Shown: piece after piece, positions 38,640 through 46,032 of the stretch | Numbering within the stretch: position 1 is the first letter of the stretch | How the letters are laid out: every line of letters begins with the position of its first letter | NCBI GenBank assembly: GCA_024641005.1 | Contig: JAHEDX010000031.1 | Span: 1 to 46,032, forward strand | Reading direction: 5' to 3' | Length of the DNA stretch: 46,032 nucleotides | Source: Acidimicrobiaceae bacterium | GTDB lineage: Bacteria > Actinomycetota > Acidimicrobiia > Acidimicrobiales > Ilumatobacteraceae | Translations under genes and position numbers: made by a program | The notes under the pieces: generated by a model | What the model saw: only the letters and a program-made list of their open reading frames with translations | The model's database searches: none | Told to the model about the DNA's origin: nothing

Positions 38640-39431
38640 TCAACCCCGGCCGAGCTCGCGGCTGCGGTCGGTCGCTGCCTGCACCGCTCCGATCAACGCG
38701 GCCCGAACCGCACGGTCCTCGAGGACCCGCACGCCGGCAGCGGTGGTGCCACCCGGTGAGGTCACCATGGCGCGAAGCCCCGCCGGATCACCTCGCTCGG
38801 CGAGCAGCTTGGACGAGCCGACGAGGAGCTGAGCGACCATCAGCTCGACCGTCGCCCGCGGCAGCCCAGCCGCGACGCCGGCGTCCATCAATGCCTCTGC
38901 GACGAGGAACACGTACGCGGGGCCCGAACCCGTCAGGCCGGTGACGGCGTCGAGCTGTGACTCGGCGACCCGGACGACCAGCCCGACCCCGGCGAGGACC
39001 CGCTCCGCCCAGTCGAGATCGGCGTCGGTCGTGCCGGCCGCACCGCTGAGCGCCGACACACCCTCGCCGACGAGCGCAGGCGTGTTCGGCATCGTTCGCA
39101 GCACGGCCACGCCCTCACCGACCGCGGCCACGATCGTGGCGGTGGTGACGCCGGCCGCGACCGAGAGCACCCGGGTCGCACCCGCCGCAGCTGCCGAACG
39201 AGCGACCGCAGGAATGTCGGGCGGCTTGACAGCGAGCACCGCCGATGCACAAGGGGGAACCTCATCGGTGATGGTCACGCCGCCGAAGGAGGCTTCGAGT
39301 TCGAGGCGCCGAGGGGCGTACGGTTCGACCACCGCCACCTCGCCGTGGCCGACCACGCCCGAGTCGAGCAGCCCCCCGAGCAGGGCGGCGCCCATGTTGC
39401 CGCCGCCGATGACGACCAGTTCGAATGCCAT
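38640..39431 (-). CDS. proC: Pyrroline-5-carboxylate reductase ProC
   Basis: 263 residues. Last step of proline synthesis. The Rossmann motif VIGGGNMGAALLGGLL starts at residue 7; AVKPPDIP, RTMPNTPALVGEGVSAL and the signature TGLTGSGPAYVFLVAEALMDAGVAAGLPR are intact; TSPGGTTAAGVRVLED is the conserved C-terminal active-site segment. It is preceded by TAGCGT seven bases before the ATG. The 216 bases upstream (39432-39647) hold no recognised gene. Confidence 0.96.
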   Translation of the reverse strand: MAFELVVIGGGNMGAALLGGLLDSGVVGHGEVAVVEPYAPRRLELEASFGGVTITDEVPPCASAVLAVKPPDIPAVARSAAAAGATRVLSVAAGVTTATIVAAVGEGVAVLRTMPNTPALVGEGVSALSGAAGTTDADLDWAERVLAGVGLVVRVAESQLDAVTGLTGSGPAYVFLVAEALMDAGVAAGLPRATVELMVAQLLVGSSKLLAERGDPAGLRAMVTSPGGTTAAGVRVLEDRAVRAALIGAVQAATDRSRELGRG

Positions 39432-39647: not shown

Positions 39648-40124
39648 TCAGGTTGCGAAGCGACTTGCGAACGCGATTCGCAGCAGCGCCACGAAGTTCG
39701 CCTCGACGGCCACGTACATCGTCCCCAGGATCCGATCGAGCTCGTCAGCTGACAACGCCACATCGGGTATCTCGCCGCGCAGATAGACGGCGTCCTCCTG
39801 GCCGATCGAGAAGTGAGCGCCAACGAGATGCTCGTTGCGACGCAGCAGCATCTCCATCACGGTCGCCTGGTTCTCGGCGGGAGCCGGCATCACGTAGGTC
39901 TCATATCGAAGCGTTCGCTGACCGAGGGTCAGCCACACGGTGATGAAGTCCTTGTCCTCGCCGACCATCCGCACGAACCAACGAGGTTCCCCGAGCGGGG
40001 TGTCGTCGCTCGTGCCTCGGTCGATGGCCGCGACCAGCGGATTGGACTGCGCGAACACGTCGAGCCAGTGATCGATCTTGGCCCGCAGATCGTCGAGTCG
40101 CGAACCGACGTGCAGATCGGTCAT
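39648..40124 (-). CDS. YbjN-domain protein linked to mshA
   Basis: 158 residues from ATG 40124, overlapping the mshA stop by ATGA. The fold is the type-III-secretion-chaperone-like YbjN domain: VRMVGEDKDFITVWLTLGQRTLRYETYVMPAP, LLRRNEHLVGAHFSI, VYLRGEIP. In mycobacteria and Streptomyces a YbjN gene also adjoins mshA, so the linkage is ancient, though its role is not established. Translational coupling to mshA suggests matched amounts. Confidence 0.88.
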   Translation of the reverse strand: MTDLHVGSRLDDLRAKIDHWLDVFAQSNPLVAAIDRGTSDDTPLGEPRWFVRMVGEDKDFITVWLTLGQRTLRYETYVMPAPAENQATVMEMLLRRNEHLVGAHFSIGQEDAVYLRGEIPDVALSADELDRILGTMYVAVEANFVALLRIAFASRFAT

Positions 40125-41335
40125 TCGCCCAGCACGAGCTGCCGCGCGGTGAGATCGGTGTAGAGGCGCCGCAACCGGGCGGCCGCGAATCCCCAGGTGT
40201 ACTGACGGGCCTTGGTGGCCGCCGCCGAGGACATCGCCGCTGCGAGCATCGGGTCGTCGAGCACCGCGGCGACCGCCGCAGCGAAGACGGCAGGGGCTCG
40301 TTCTGAGATCAGAAAGCCCGTCTGACCGTGGTCGACCAGCGACTTCAGCCCACCGACAGCGTTGGCGACGACAGGAATCCCGCACGCTGCTGCTTCGAGG
40401 GCCACGAGCCCGAAACTCTCGCTGCGACTGGGCACGAGCACGACATCGGCCGCGCGGTAGTAGGTCGAAAGAATGTGGTGCGGTTGCGGCGGGACGAACC
40501 TCACCTGGTCGTGCAAGCCGAGTTCGTCGACGAGTTGGTGAGCGCGCTCGATCTCGCCGTCACCCGATGATCCACTGGCCCCGCCGACGACCAGCAACAG
40601 AGCATCGGGGCGATGCAGAGCATGCAACGCACGGATCGCCACATCGGGGCCCTTGAGCGGTTGGATCCGACCCACGAACAGCAAGACCGGAGCAGCCCGG
40701 GGAAGATCGAGCGCTGCGCGCGCTCCGGCCCGATCGCCGGGCGCGAAGAAGGCGTGCTCGACGCCCGGGGCCACGATCTCGATCAGCCCCTTGGGGTCAC
40801 CGTAGAGACGCCGGAACTGCTCTTCCTCCTCGACACAGCTCACGCAGATCGCGTCGGCGCAGTTGATCAGCTCGGCCTCGGCCCGATCGCGCCATCCCGG
40901 CTCGGGATCGCCGCCTTCCGATTTGACGCGGGCGAGCGTGTGGAACGTGGACACGAACGGGATGTCGAGTTCGTGTTTGATCCGGTGGGCAGCAACCCCG
41001 CTGAGCCAGTAGTTCGCGTGGACGGCATCGGCGCCACCATTCGCGAGGAGATGCTCGAGCACTCGATCCGTGAACTCGTCGATGATCTCGGGCAGCGCCT
41101 CCTTGGGCAGGTGATGTGGACCAGCCTCGATGTAGACGACCTTGTGATTGGGTTCGACGATCACCTCGGACGGCAGGCCCTCGCGGTCGGCACGTGTATA
41201 GGTGGTGCATTCGAGCCCGGCTTGCGACAACGACGACACGAGCTCGCGGACGTACACGTTCATCCCACCGCTGTCGCCCGAACCGGGCTGCAGCAGCGGA
41301 GACGTGTGTAAGGAGATCACCGCGACTCGACGCAT
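40121..41335 (-). CDS. mshA: D-inositol-3-phosphate glycosyltransferase MshA (mycothiol synthesis)
   Basis: 404 residues from ATG 41335; GTG 41338 and TTG 41347 are alternatives. Transfers GlcNAc from UDP-GlcNAc to inositol-3-phosphate, the first mycothiol step. A GT4, GT-B fold: VAVISLHTSPLLQPGSGDSGGMNVYVREL (N-terminal lobe), HANYWLSG, VSTFHTLARVK, FVGRIQPLKGPDVAIRAL, VPSRSESFGLVALEAAACGIPVVA (sugar-nucleotide site). GDSGGMNVY and the HTLARVK segment separate MshA from other GT4 enzymes. Mycothiol is restricted to actinobacteria. Confidence 0.95.
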   Translation of the reverse strand: MRRVAVISLHTSPLLQPGSGDSGGMNVYVRELVSSLSQAGLECTTYTRADREGLPSEVIVEPNHKVVYIEAGPHHLPKEALPEIIDEFTDRVLEHLLANGGADAVHANYWLSGVAAHRIKHELDIPFVSTFHTLARVKSEGGDPEPGWRDRAEAELINCADAICVSCVEEEEQFRRLYGDPKGLIEIVAPGVEHAFFAPGDRAGARAALDLPRAAPVLLFVGRIQPLKGPDVAIRALHALHRPDALLLVVGGASGSSGDGEIERAHQLVDELGLHDQVRFVPPQPHHILSTYYRAADVVLVPSRSESFGLVALEAAACGIPVVANAVGGLKSLVDHGQTGFLISERAPAVFAAAVAAVLDDPMLAAAMSSAAATKARQYTWGFAAARLRRLYTDLTARQLVLGE

Positions 41336-41463
41336 CACAGGGATCAAACGCTAGCGACCCGGTCAACATTCCCGATCAGCGGACGTTCCTACCCGCCGGT
41401 GCGGTCGCCGTCGTGACCAGATCCCCTCACGCCCTTGGACGGCCCCACCGATGGGGCGACCGA

Positions 41464-41859
41464 TCATCTCGATCGCGAAACGAAACTCTCGTACACGTTC
41501 AGCAGGGCCAGCTTCTGCTCGGGCGCCAGGTCGGGATCGTTGTCGATCGCCTCCGGCACGGTACTGATCGAGCGCTCGAGGTCGGGCAGGATGCCGGCCC
41601 TGACGTAGAGGGACTCGACGCTGATCCTGAGTGCATTCGCTACCTGCTGCAAGATGTCGGCCGAGGGTTTCCTGAGCCCTCGTTCGATCTGCGAGAGGTA
41701 GGGGTTCGAGACATTTGCGAGCTCGGCCAGCTTGCGAATCGACATCTCCGCCCGCTCGCGTTGGCTGCGGATGAACTCTCCGACGTCGAGCAAGTCGCCG
41801 AGCGGAGCACCCGCCTCGGTGGATCCGGCGCCGGATGCTTCCGACGAACGGGAGGCCAT
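41464..41859 (-). CDS. XRE-family transcriptional regulator (Rv0474-like)
   Basis: 131 residues from ATG 41859, one base after the upstream stop. After a Ser/Gly/Ala leader (about 22 residues), the helix-turn-helix covers about residues 27-85 (SIRKLAELANVSNPYLSQIERGL, KPSADILQQVANALRISVESLY). The C-terminal part (RAGILPDLE..., LAPEQKLALLNVYESF) matches mycobacterial Rv0474-type regulators as I recall them. It is co-transcribed with the RsiG-like gene, so it may respond to or act with that protein (inference). Confidence 0.88.
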   Translation of the reverse strand: MASRSSEASGAGSTEAGAPLGDLLDVGEFIRSQRERAEMSIRKLAELANVSNPYLSQIERGLRKPSADILQQVANALRISVESLYVRAGILPDLERSISTVPEAIDNDPDLAPEQKLALLNVYESFVSRSR

Positions 41860-41860
41860 C

Positions 41861-42349
41861 TCAGCCCCCGAGCAGACCGTCGACCGAGGCCTCGCCGTCG
41901 CGATAGCGACGCACCAGCTCGGCGCTGAGCGCGTCGAGGTGCTCGTATCGCTCGCGTCGGTCGTCGGAGACGCGACGCTCGAAAGCGGTGAGTTCACCGT
42001 CGAGAACCTCGAGTTCGCTCAACGACAGGCTCTCGAGCCGACTGAACCCGTGCTCGGCGCAGACCGCGTCGAGACGGTCGGACAGATCGTTGTCTTCGAG
42101 ATTCTCGACCGGTCGGGGCGGGCGCGGCGGACCACCGGTGAGATGGCTCGACAGCACGACCCGGAGCTCGCTGGACACGTCTTCGGACAACTCGCCGCGC
42201 GCTCGCCGATGTGCCTCGGCGCGAACCAGATCGAGGCGGGCCTGAGCGACGCGCCGCACATACGACACCACGTCGTCCTCGTTCTGCAATCGATTGCGCT
42301 CGTCGCGCAATTGGTCGAGCGACAGCGATTGTGGATCGGCTGCGTTCAC
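41861..42349 (-). CDS. RsiG-like protein (predicted c-di-GMP-binding anti-sigma family)
   Basis: 162 residues from GTG 42349, six bases after AGGAGG; GTG 42355 is too close to that site. Mostly helical. RsiG of Streptomyces carries two copies of E-x3-S-x2-R-x3-Q-x3-D that bind c-di-GMP in an antiparallel coiled coil and so hold the sigma factor WhiG. Here copy 1 is D25-S29-R32-Q36-D40 (in DDVVSYVRRVAQARLD) and copy 2 is E124-S128-R131-Y135-D139 (in ERRVSDDRRERYEHLD), each with one substitution. A Pro-rich linker (GGPPRPPRP) and a short helix separate them. Start overlaps the MoaD-like stop (GTGA). No WhiG-type sigma gene is in the window. Confidence 0.78.
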   Translation of the reverse strand: MNAADPQSLSLDQLRDERNRLQNEDDVVSYVRRVAQARLDLVRAEAHRRARGELSEDVSSELRVVLSSHLTGGPPRPPRPVENLEDNDLSDRLDAVCAEHGFSRLESLSLSELEVLDGELTAFERRVSDDRRERYEHLDALSAELVRRYRDGEASVDGLLGG

Positions 42350-42588
42350 GTGCACCCTCCTGATACCGGCGGCAGGACCGCCAGTTCGTCGGCCGAGCCG
42401 ACATGGTCGTCAGACTGGGCCGGTTCTCCGTTGACCCAGATCTTGCTGGACGCGAGCACCCTGGTGAAGGCGTCGCCATAGCGTTGGCTGGCAACGGCGA
42501 GCACGGCATCGACCGTGTCGCCGGGCAGCTCGTCACGGCTGGTCCCGGCAGCATCACGCGCTGCAGCAAAGAGGCGGACGATTGCCAT
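42346..42588 (-). CDS. MoaD/ThiS-family ubiquitin-like sulfur carrier with GGCT tail
   Basis: 80 residues from ATG 42588 (MAIVRLFAAARDAAG). The beta-grasp fold ends ELAVLPPVSGG, the MoaD-type tail, but two more residues (Cys-Thr) follow before the stop, while MoaD normally ends exactly at Gly-Gly to be thiocarboxylated. The GGA GGG codons also form the ribosome-binding site of the next gene. Either the tail is trimmed or the protein cannot carry sulfur as made. A role in molybdopterin synthesis for NarG is possible but unproven. Confidence 0.85.
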   Translation of the reverse strand: MAIVRLFAAARDAAGTSRDELPGDTVDAVLAVASQRYGDAFTRVLASSKIWVNGEPAQSDDHVGSADELAVLPPVSGGCT

Positions 42589-42625: not shown

Positions 42626-43348
42626 ATGCTGCGCTCATCGACCTCGCTGCTGCTGCTCCGGCACGGGCAGAGCGAATGGAACGCTGTGCGCCGTTGGCAG
42701 GGTTCGGCCGACACCCCGCTGACGGCACTCGGGCGCGAGCAGGCGATCTCTGCCGCGGAGCGGCTCGCCGCCCTCGATGTCGATTTCTGCGGGCCATGGA
42801 CCAGTGATCTGGACCGGGCGGCCACGACGGCATCGGCGATCGCATCGGTGCTCGGTATCGGGCCGACGATCGCCGACCGCCGGCTGCGCGAAGCCACCGC
42901 CGGCGAATGGGAGGGCCTCACGCCACATGAGATCGAGGCGCGGTACCCGGGATGGCTGGACGCCCATCGCCGACCCGCCTCGTTCGAACCATTCGACACG
43001 GTCGTCGCCCGCGCATTGGCAGCGATCCGAGCGATCGCGGGCGCGGCTCGCCCACCGGGGTCCGTGCCGCTCGTCGTCACCCACTCCGGCGTGATCCGCT
43101 CGGTCATGCGCCACCTCGGCCATCCCGACTCGAGGATCGCGAACCTCGGGGGCGTGTGGCTGTCGGTGGACCCGGCATCCTCAGCCATCGACACCGCCGA
43201 CGGGATCGGAGGCCGTGACACGATCGGCGTCTCGGTGGGAGATCTGTTCGATGCGGACGGGATCGTTGTCAGTGGCATCGACATTCCCGGGGAGGATCCC
43301 CGCCAACAGGCCGATCAATCCCACGACCACCGCCGCACCGACGGCTGA
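42626..43348 (+). CDS. Histidine phosphatase (phosphoglycerate-mutase-like)
   Basis: 240 residues. LLLLRHGQSEWNAVRRWQG carries the phospho-accepting His in RHG; SDLDRAATTA, the acid in LREATAGEWEGLT and VVTHSGVIRSV (second His) complete the site. The family core ends near residue 185 (NLGGVWLSV); about 55 further residues, ending in a charged HDHRRTDG, are extra and are encoded over the 3' end of the opposite gene. The substrate is unknown; it could be a cofactor or sugar phosphate. Confidence 0.9.
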   Translation: MLRSSTSLLLLRHGQSEWNAVRRWQGSADTPLTALGREQAISAAERLAALDVDFCGPWTSDLDRAATTASAIASVLGIGPTIADRRLREATAGEWEGLTPHEIEARYPGWLDAHRRPASFEPFDTVVARALAAIRAIAGAARPPGSVPLVVTHSGVIRSVMRHLGHPDSRIANLGGVWLSVDPASSAIDTADGIGGRDTIGVSVGDLFDADGIVVSGIDIPGEDPRQQADQSHDHRRTDG

Positions 43349-44257
43349 CTGGCGCGCGGTTCGCTCCTCGGTCCGGCGGGACACCAGATGAGCGTTGGCC
43401 AACTCGGGGGCCGTCGTGGTGCGCAGCGTGTAGAGACCGCCGATCACCGTCAGGATCGCAAGCAGCATCGCTGTCTGCCGACCGTCGGCCGACATCGGGG
43501 CGAGACCATGGGTCCACCGATCGCTCATCCCCCGCAGTGCGATCGCCAGGTTGAGCGACACCACTGCGGCGACGGTGCCCACCCAGCGGCGAGGGGCGAC
43601 GCCGTCGGGATCGGTGCCGGCGCACACCTCACCGAGTGCAGCCGACGACCAGCGAATGCGGTCGCCGACACGAATCCGGCCGCCACTGAGCAACACATGG
43701 GACACGGACAGGGTGAGGAATCCGATCACGCCGAAGGCGATGGCCCAGTGCGGCGGAACGGACATCGGTGCCACGCCGAGCAGCAACCCCGCCGCCAGCG
43801 ACACGACGAGGACGAGACGCCGCGGACCATCGGTGAGTACGGCCGCCATCGCTACGTCGGGCAGTTCTGGACGGCCATGCCTCACGGTTCGGTAGGAAGC
43901 GACGAGGTCACCACGGAGGTTCGACGTGCGAGGCCGGCCGAGGGCGTCCTCCACTGCGTATGCGTATCGGAAGGCCTCCCGCCGGTCGATGTCGAAACGC
44001 CCGCCCGGCACATTCGTACGGGCGAGTCCGAACGCCACCAGCAAACCTGCCGCGACGGACACGACCTCGACGGAAAAGATCATCAATGCGATCGGATGTG
44101 CGCTGAGGTGCGTGGCCCGCCACCCCAACCAACCGGTCGAAGCGAGCAGGCAGGTCGTCAACGACACGACGCCCGCCGCGCGGCGCCATGCATCGTTCTG
44201 CGGGGCCGCACGCCGTTCGTCGCCCATCTCGGTTCTGCCCGTTTCGAGCAGGGCCAT
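43181..44257 (-). CDS. Hypothetical polytopic membrane protein
   Basis: 358 residues from ATG 44257; not recognised. Seven or so hydrophobic helices, in two groups (about residues 30-80 and 145-345), separated by a hydrophilic segment (FDIDRREAFRYAYAVEDALGRPR...). No cofactor motif is seen. Its last 56 codons overlap the phosphatase gene tail-to-tail by 168 bases. The hydrophobic helix VGAAVVVGLIGLLAGIL begins just outside that overlap, so both frames look real. Confidence 0.75.
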   Translation of the reverse strand: MALLETGRTEMGDERRAAPQNDAWRRAAGVVSLTTCLLASTGWLGWRATHLSAHPIALMIFSVEVVSVAAGLLVAFGLARTNVPGGRFDIDRREAFRYAYAVEDALGRPRTSNLRGDLVASYRTVRHGRPELPDVAMAAVLTDGPRRLVLVVSLAAGLLLGVAPMSVPPHWAIAFGVIGFLTLSVSHVLLSGGRIRVGDRIRWSSAALGEVCAGTDPDGVAPRRWVGTVAAVVSLNLAIALRGMSDRWTHGLAPMSADGRQTAMLLAILTVIGGLYTLRTTTAPELANAHLVSRRTEERTARQSAVGAAVVVGLIGLLAGILPGNVDATDNDPVRIEQISHRDADRVTASDPVGGVDG

Positions 44258-44390
44258 GTGTTCCGCCAGTGGTCAAGCGGTGCCTCGCGCACCGTCGTTA
44301 TCAGCCTTATCGGCCGGATTTCCCACGGCTTGAACGCTGAGTCGCAACGACCACTGCCGAGCCCGCGCTGAAACCCCGCGGCGGCGCCGG

Positions 44391-44405: not shown

Positions 44406-45037
44406 GTGGGCACACAGAAGCGTGAACGTCAAAAAGCAAACCGCCATCAGCGTCAACTCGAAGAGGCTCACGCCCAACGAGTCGGCACCGTGAAGCGCAA
44501 CGTGCTGCGGTGGAGTATCGGAGGCGTCTTGGCGCTCGGTGCCGTCGTGCTGATCGCATGGATCGGTGGTGCCTTCGACAACGACGACACAGCTTCGACC
44601 GACCTGCCGACGATCGATTCGACGGTTCCCGTCGACAGCACTCCGGTCGAGACCCTGCCGACGCCGCCCAAGCCCGACGTGGTGATTCCCGACGAGCTGC
44701 CGACCGAGCTGGTCATCACCGATCTCGTCGAGGGAACCGGCGAGGCCGCTCAGGTGGGTGACACCGTGGTGGTGCACTATGTCGGCGTTCGTTCCGAGGA
44801 CGGCGTCGAGTTCGACAACAGCTACGACCGGGGGACGCCCTTCCCGGTCGCGCTCGGCTCGGGCGGGGTCATCCAAGGCTGGGAGGACGGCTTGATCGGG
44901 GTCAAGGTCGGCGGTCAGCGTCAGCTCGACATCCCGGCCGATCTCGCCTACGGCGACGAAGGCCGTGGCGACATCATCCGGCCTGGCGATGCCCTCACGT
45001 TCGTCGTCGATGTCATGGCCATCACGCCATCGGGAGA

Positions 45038-45041
<4 letters not shown>
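44406..45041 (+). CDS. Membrane-anchored FKBP-type peptidyl-prolyl isomerase
   Basis: 211 residues from GTG 44406. A very basic cytoplasmic N-terminus (KRERQKANRHQRQ), one helix (about residues 35-53), a Thr/Pro-rich external stalk, then an FKBP domain (about residues 100-208): GDTVVVHYVGVRSEDGVEFDNSYDRG, GGVIQGWEDGLIGVKVGGQRQLDIP, AYGDEGRGDIIRPGDALTFVVDV. Catalytic-pocket residues (Tyr, Asp, Trp, Tyr) are present. Likely folds exported proteins at the outer face. The next gene begins in its stop codon and has a related domain, suggesting duplication. Confidence 0.93.

Positions 45042-46032
<991 letters not shown>

Follow-up and report, generated by a model that had tools for sequence, protein, structure and literature searches.

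RsiG-WhiG has been described as the sole sigma/anti-sigma complex known to be a target of c-di-GMP (PMC8325347). Earlier work in Streptomyces and Rubrobacter has demonstrated that RsiG binds both c-di-GMP and WhiG. The described outputs are sporulation in Streptomyces and, from mapped promoters, pili in Rubrobacter; there, genes for type IV pili and for c-di-GMP enzymes stand behind predicted WhiG promoters whose start sites were mapped (PMC8325347). Rubrobacter radiotolerans RsiG (PDB 7lq2-7lq4) carries one copy of the c-di-GMP motif and dimerises, while a twin-motif RsiG was reported in three of four Acidimicrobiales species; in the parts of PMC8325347 consulted, neither a regulon nor the gene neighbourhood or motifs of the Acidimicrobiales proteins are detailed. 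The locus described below has the same motif as the Rubrobacter protein in two copies per chain, an arrangement shared with S. venezuelae RsiG (PDB 6pfj, 6pfv).

The window, i.e. the whole stretch of 46,032 nucleotides that was analysed, contains on its minus strand the gene rsiG (41861..42349), whose 162-aa product was assigned as a twin-motif RsiG-family anti-sigma factor by profile, sequence and fold matches. As read by eye, the GTG start lies at 42349 with GGAGG 6 bases 5' of it, overlapping the stop of moaD in the sequence GTGA. The rsiG stop at 41861-41863 is separated by one base from the ATG of xre at 41859. The Pfam family RsiG (PF22802) matched the product in two stretches with 71.1 bits against a curated cut-off of 27 (E=6.2e-20). 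The top match among solved sequences was S. venezuelae RsiG (E=4.9e-12, residues 10-162), followed by three RsiG chains of the Rubrobacter paper (E of about 1e-5); these first Pfam, PDB and BLAST runs were made on a longer version of 164 aa that begins with the GTG at 42355, which shifts positions by +2. Homology to RsiG thus does not depend on the motif alone. The closest named relatives came from Ilumatobacter and Acidimicrobiaceae draft genomes, with identity up to 86%. The predicted structure (mean pLDDT 88.9) consists of two long helices, residues 11-50 and 110-150, in the antiparallel coiled coil of RsiG. RsiG was its top match when a second aligner re-ranked Foldseek's own matches, a comparison that does not exclude families absent from that list, and in the fold alignment to S. 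venezuelae RsiG the identity was 33-34% along almost the entire chain. The first-pass annotation had read this frame as an RsiG-type c-di-GMP anti-sigma factor with two motif copies; its coordinates and both motifs were reproduced, and the identity is now backed by the Pfam family, the S. venezuelae protein and the predicted fold. Judged from sequence and structural model, the product is the RsiG of an Ilumatobacter relative (Acidimicrobiia) and belongs to a known family.

The first c-di-GMP motif covers residues 25-40 (D25, S29, R32, Q36, D40; 42230..42277, minus strand) in helix 11-50, and the second covers residues 124-139 (E124, S128, R131, Y135, D139; 41933..41980, minus strand) in helix 110-150. 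Each copy has four of the five residues of E-x3-S-x2-R-x3-Q/H-x3-D and neither has all five. Compared with S. venezuelae RsiG, the first motif has D for E and the second has Y for Q. Among the 253 open frames that reach 100 codons in the whole window, rsiG alone contained two motif matches of at least 4/5; hence the pair exceeds what chance would give.

A search of the same genome for a WhiG-like sigma factor and for GGDEF proteins returned one sigma above the FliA/WhiG cut-off (C10:20321-20980; 262.2 bits against 189.6 for TIGR02479) and 11 GGDEF matches. Its best solved match was S. venezuelae WhiG (E=2.4e-74). It scored below the equivalog cut-off of NF004935 (285.8 against 343 bits), which was still the top of 57 matching families. 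This whiG is not linked to rsiG and lies, as seen by eye, between comM/dprA-like genes and rpsB; in Streptomyces, too, whiG is unlinked to rsiG. The VKFVAGR contact residues K57, G61 and R62 of S. venezuelae WhiG, a lysine, glycine and arginine that touch c-di-GMP (PMC8325347), are kept as K37, G41 and R42. Among the WhiGs of RsiG-positive genomes, KGR occurred in 8 of 11, KSR in two and RSR in one, while none of six sigma factors of the lower-scoring class had KGR. These residues were rejected as a sign of coupling to RsiG, because KGR was also kept in all three WhiGs of RsiG-negative genomes and is therefore not diagnostic.

We consider it highly probable that RsiG armed with c-di-GMP holds this unlinked WhiG, and that the freed sigma factor reads promoters of the form TCAAG-N15/16-CCGATA. 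At high c-di-GMP, the two motif helices would hold a c-di-GMP dimer and clamp WhiG; when c-di-GMP falls, WhiG would be freed and would transcribe from these promoters, many of them apparently leaderless. Its targets would be type IV pilus genes, c-di-GMP cyclases and phosphodiesterases, roadblock proteins and secreted and surface proteins, as well as a membrane protein encoded close to rsiG. What has been computed is the family, the fold, the conservation of the motifs, the presence of WhiG and GGDEF proteins, the co-occurrence with WhiG, and the promoter class with its downstream genes. By analogy with the described systems, we infer that the RsiG of the window would bind c-di-GMP and WhiG, and that WhiG would be the reader of the promoter class.

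The promoter class was recognised in the window itself. A predicted WhiG/flagellar-type promoter, TCAAG-N15-CCGATA (44308..44333, minus strand), lies 49 nt before the start of a gene for a 358-aa protein (43181..44257, minus strand) beyond the histidine phosphatase gene. This candidate target looks like a membrane protein by eye and had no match in Pfam or NCBIfam. The strict flagellar pattern TAAA-N15-GCCGATAA with at most one mismatch gave 1 match in the genome against 4 in the control; it proved useless alone, and its single match in the window led to the TCAAG form. Upstream of 43181-44257, the TCAAG and CCGATA boxes were identical in all six genomes aligned, while the spacer of 15-16 nt was not; the more distant loci L023-L029 lay outside this alignment, and a seventh genome (G296) seemed to have the same arrangement, with the likeness of the gene judged by eye. 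In ten genomes of the family, TCAAG-N13/16-CCGATAA gave 7 matches against 2 in the control. TCAAG-N15/16-CCGATA gave 59 against 9 in the reversed control, an enrichment that is partly post hoc, since the final pattern was read off aligned upstream sequences. The genome itself accounted for 13 matches against 2. Two observations played no part in choosing the pattern. First, at 20 of 46 sites (the distinct sites read, out of 59) a start codon, ATG or GTG, that opens a frame of 80 codons or more stood exactly 7 or 8 nt past CCGATA, compared with about 2.8% of random positions; this spacing suggests leaderless transcripts. Second, in other families of the order, 20 hand-chosen WhiG-positive genomes gave 43 matches against 20 in the control, while 28 hand-chosen WhiG-negative genomes gave 34 against 32, i.e. 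no enrichment.

These promoters could instead belong to another sigma factor, with RsiG and WhiG controlling other genes. For Rubrobacter the -35 box was taken as TAAA rather than TCAAG (PMC8325347), the enrichment outside the family is modest, and five RsiG-positive genomes without a detected WhiG still gave 12 matches against 2. On the other hand, CCGATA at -10 is similar to the flagellar GCCGATAA, the genome contains a single sigma of the FliA/WhiG clade over the cut-off, and WhiG-negative genomes lack the enrichment, so that we regard a different owner as unlikely. One genome with both RsiG and WhiG (G064) had no promoter match.

Under WhiG as the reader, the genes behind the sites give a predicted regulon. 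All 20 proteins behind short-spaced sites were examined with Pfam: seven carried GGDEF, EAL or HD-GYP-type domains, six others were roadblock, sugar transferase, CAP, beta-helix, FN3 and cell-wall-binding proteins, and the remaining seven had no informative Pfam match. The GG[DE]EF motif is intact in four of the GGDEF proteins, a GGDEF-EAL protein of the same-genus genome G006 has the EAL motif and no GG[DE]EF, and the HD protein has the HD-GYP signature. A GGDEF target in the genome itself (contig C36; L178:3390-4424, minus strand), located directly behind TCAAG-N16-CCGATA, has DADTF in place of the GGDEF motif and is possibly a non-enzymatic effector. Promoter sites with a longer leader stood before a coiled-coil gene in five genomes (G000, G006, G102, G327 and G296), and in G006, G102 and G327 this gene was followed by pilB. 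In G006, pilB (with MshEN), pilC and pilT occur in succession with prepilin-type genes nearby. A search of the window's genome found no PilB, an empty answer that is uninformative for want of a known positive, and the coiled-coil gene there is cut off by the end of contig C74, so that the position where pilB would be expected is missing from the contig. As a further observation, the type IV pilus genes in G006 (L179 and L180) face a gene for a NIT-HAMP-HATPase protein, then a roadblock gene and a GTPase-like gene, and both promoters of this region recur in the window's genome.

The placing of these promoters before pilus and c-di-GMP enzyme genes resembles the Rubrobacter arrangement (PMC8325347). 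In Streptomyces, the phosphodiesterase RmdB is reported to bind WhiG via its GGDEF domain and to keep RsiG off (PMC13232838). As a tentative guess, about which we are more doubtful than hopeful, the degenerate GGDEF protein of the regulon may likewise antagonise RsiG at WhiG, and in single- and twin-motif forms alike the ancestral role of the switch may be to control pili and c-di-GMP.

With two of ten motif positions off the consensus, D25 and Y135 might have cost the protein its c-di-GMP binding; it would then either hold WhiG constitutively or have drifted to another role. The other eight positions are kept, and the alignment of sequences from the order makes such a loss very improbable. 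S29, R32, E124, S128 and R131 were invariant in all 58 aligned sequences, D40 was kept in 57 and D139 in 55, and Q36 was kept in 50, with H in four, E in three and G in one. Position 25 was E in 41, D in 16 and A in one. Position 135 was H in 31, F in 24 and Y in three, and never Q; in all eight loci of genus g144 (L062-L069), which we take to be Streptomyces, it was Q. These counts show that D25 is common with close relatives and that H, F or Y at position 135 is common to the whole order, so the Y135 change, which in the view of the first-pass annotation may affect nucleotide number or affinity, is not peculiar to the RsiG of the window. The motif residues are therefore conserved among homologues, to a degree that may be somewhat overstated since most of these loci are best-scoring ones. 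Of the loci retrieved, L031-L060 and L062-L091 were the best-scoring, and the hand-picked L092-L111 include lower-scoring and WhiG-lacking genomes. The alignment (A1) holds 58 of 62 available sequences, leaving out L032 and L058 for short starts, and L024 and L093, taken as repeats of L046 and L037. Replacement of Q by H has been noted only in the first RsiG motif, and histidine at this position is considered fit for the same guanine stacking (PMC8325347). By analogy, F or Y at position 135 could likewise stack guanine.

The adjoining XRE regulator was named as a possible partner by the first-pass annotation, which reasoned from the absence of a linked sigma gene to a c-di-GMP switch acting on this DNA-binding protein. 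The genes concerned form a block of histidine phosphatase (42626..43348, plus strand, divergent from moaD), moaD (a MoaD/ThiS-like gene upstream of rsiG; 42346..42588, minus strand), rsiG, xre (an XRE-type HTH regulator of 131 aa; 41464..41859, minus strand), a GT4-type glycosyltransferase (40121..41347, minus strand) and a proC-like pyrroline-5-carboxylate reductase (38640..39431, minus strand), and this block recurs across the order. Within distances of up to about 3 kb, a moaD homologue was found near rsiG in 21 of 32 loci examined and an xre homologue downstream in 23; xre was not found in the other nine, some of the misses being contig ends or distance limits. Linkage of XRE to rsiG is thus common but not required, and since several other genes share the block, linkage alone says little on a partnership. 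In the eight putative Streptomyces loci, by contrast, none of the moaD, xre, glycosyltransferase and proC neighbours turned up within 1.5 kb of rsiG. The XRE neighbour had 12 matches among solved structures, all to the HTH part and none named BldD. Several side observations concern the same surroundings. A SAM hydroxide adenosyltransferase gene (PF01887, PF20257; 37562-38575, minus strand) lies near the block. Two tandem isomerase-like genes occur on the plus strand, the first (44406-45041) FKBP (PF00254) and the second (45038-46030) FKBP- and cyclophilin-like by eye. In genome G387 (L161, C4:179064), TCAAG-N16-CCGATA stands 13 nt before a glycosyltransferase gene resembling, by eye, that of the block.

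Co-occurrence was compared over 148 genomes drawn from the order, 96 of which had RsiG. A WhiG-class sigma (E <=1e-69, with a gap in the listed scores between 236 and 206 bits) was present in 85 of these 96 and in 3 of the 52 RsiG-negative genomes (85/11/3/49 for both, RsiG only, WhiG only and neither), while XRE (E <=1e-18) was matched in 76 of 96 and 27 of 52; as the genomes are related, Fisher values are not to be taken at face value. RsiG thus goes far more tightly with the WhiG-class sigma than with the XRE type of the window. Among the 14 genomes discordant for RsiG and WhiG, eight were less than 90% complete and six were not. The comparison within families was confined to 115 of the 148 genomes, namely those with a listed family label that was shared or noted. 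RsiG presence varied in 10 of 38 families tabulated; WhiG varied exactly with it in six (f3, f23, f31, f40, f50, f53) and did not in four (f8, f19, f20, f34), and WhiG alone varied in four further families (f5, f9, f43, f52). Two further observations may be added. Genome G080, listed with 5% contamination, has two loci (C62:784-1275 and C50:27272-27769) with two RsiG stretches each, and a second RsiG copy has been reported only in Acidothermus (PMC8325347). Three genomes of family f32 (G032, G082, G117) have a WhiG-class sigma, with a single weak RsiG stretch recognised.

The one-base gap between rsiG and xre, the downstream homologues and the XRE match in 10 of 11 RsiG-positive genomes without a WhiG-class sigma speak for the XRE protein, but 19 of the 20 RsiG-positive genomes without an XRE match have WhiG, and the same-family genomes G134 and G064 keep RsiG and WhiG with no XRE match at E 1e-18, which leaves this partnership barely credible. 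XRE as an obligate partner was rejected on co-occurrence and neighbourhoods together. With an unlinked WhiG present, the earlier argument for a different partner is not supported, and the partner of RsiG is likely the WhiG of the same genome, not the adjoining XRE regulator.

RsiG in Acidimicrobiales is already in print, and the testable predicted regulon is a useful addition; a literature search largely confined to openly available papers turned up no description of it. In this Ilumatobacter relative, the predicted role of the switch, and the probable one, is to control pili, surface proteins and enzymes of c-di-GMP, compared with sporulation genes in Streptomyces. Acidimicrobiia are not known to sporulate. 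How RsiG grips the c-di-GMP dimer can be probed naturally through the H, F or Y found order-wide at the second stacking position, and with a predicted twin-motif RsiG regulon in Acidimicrobiia the ancestral output of the switch becomes open to direct test.
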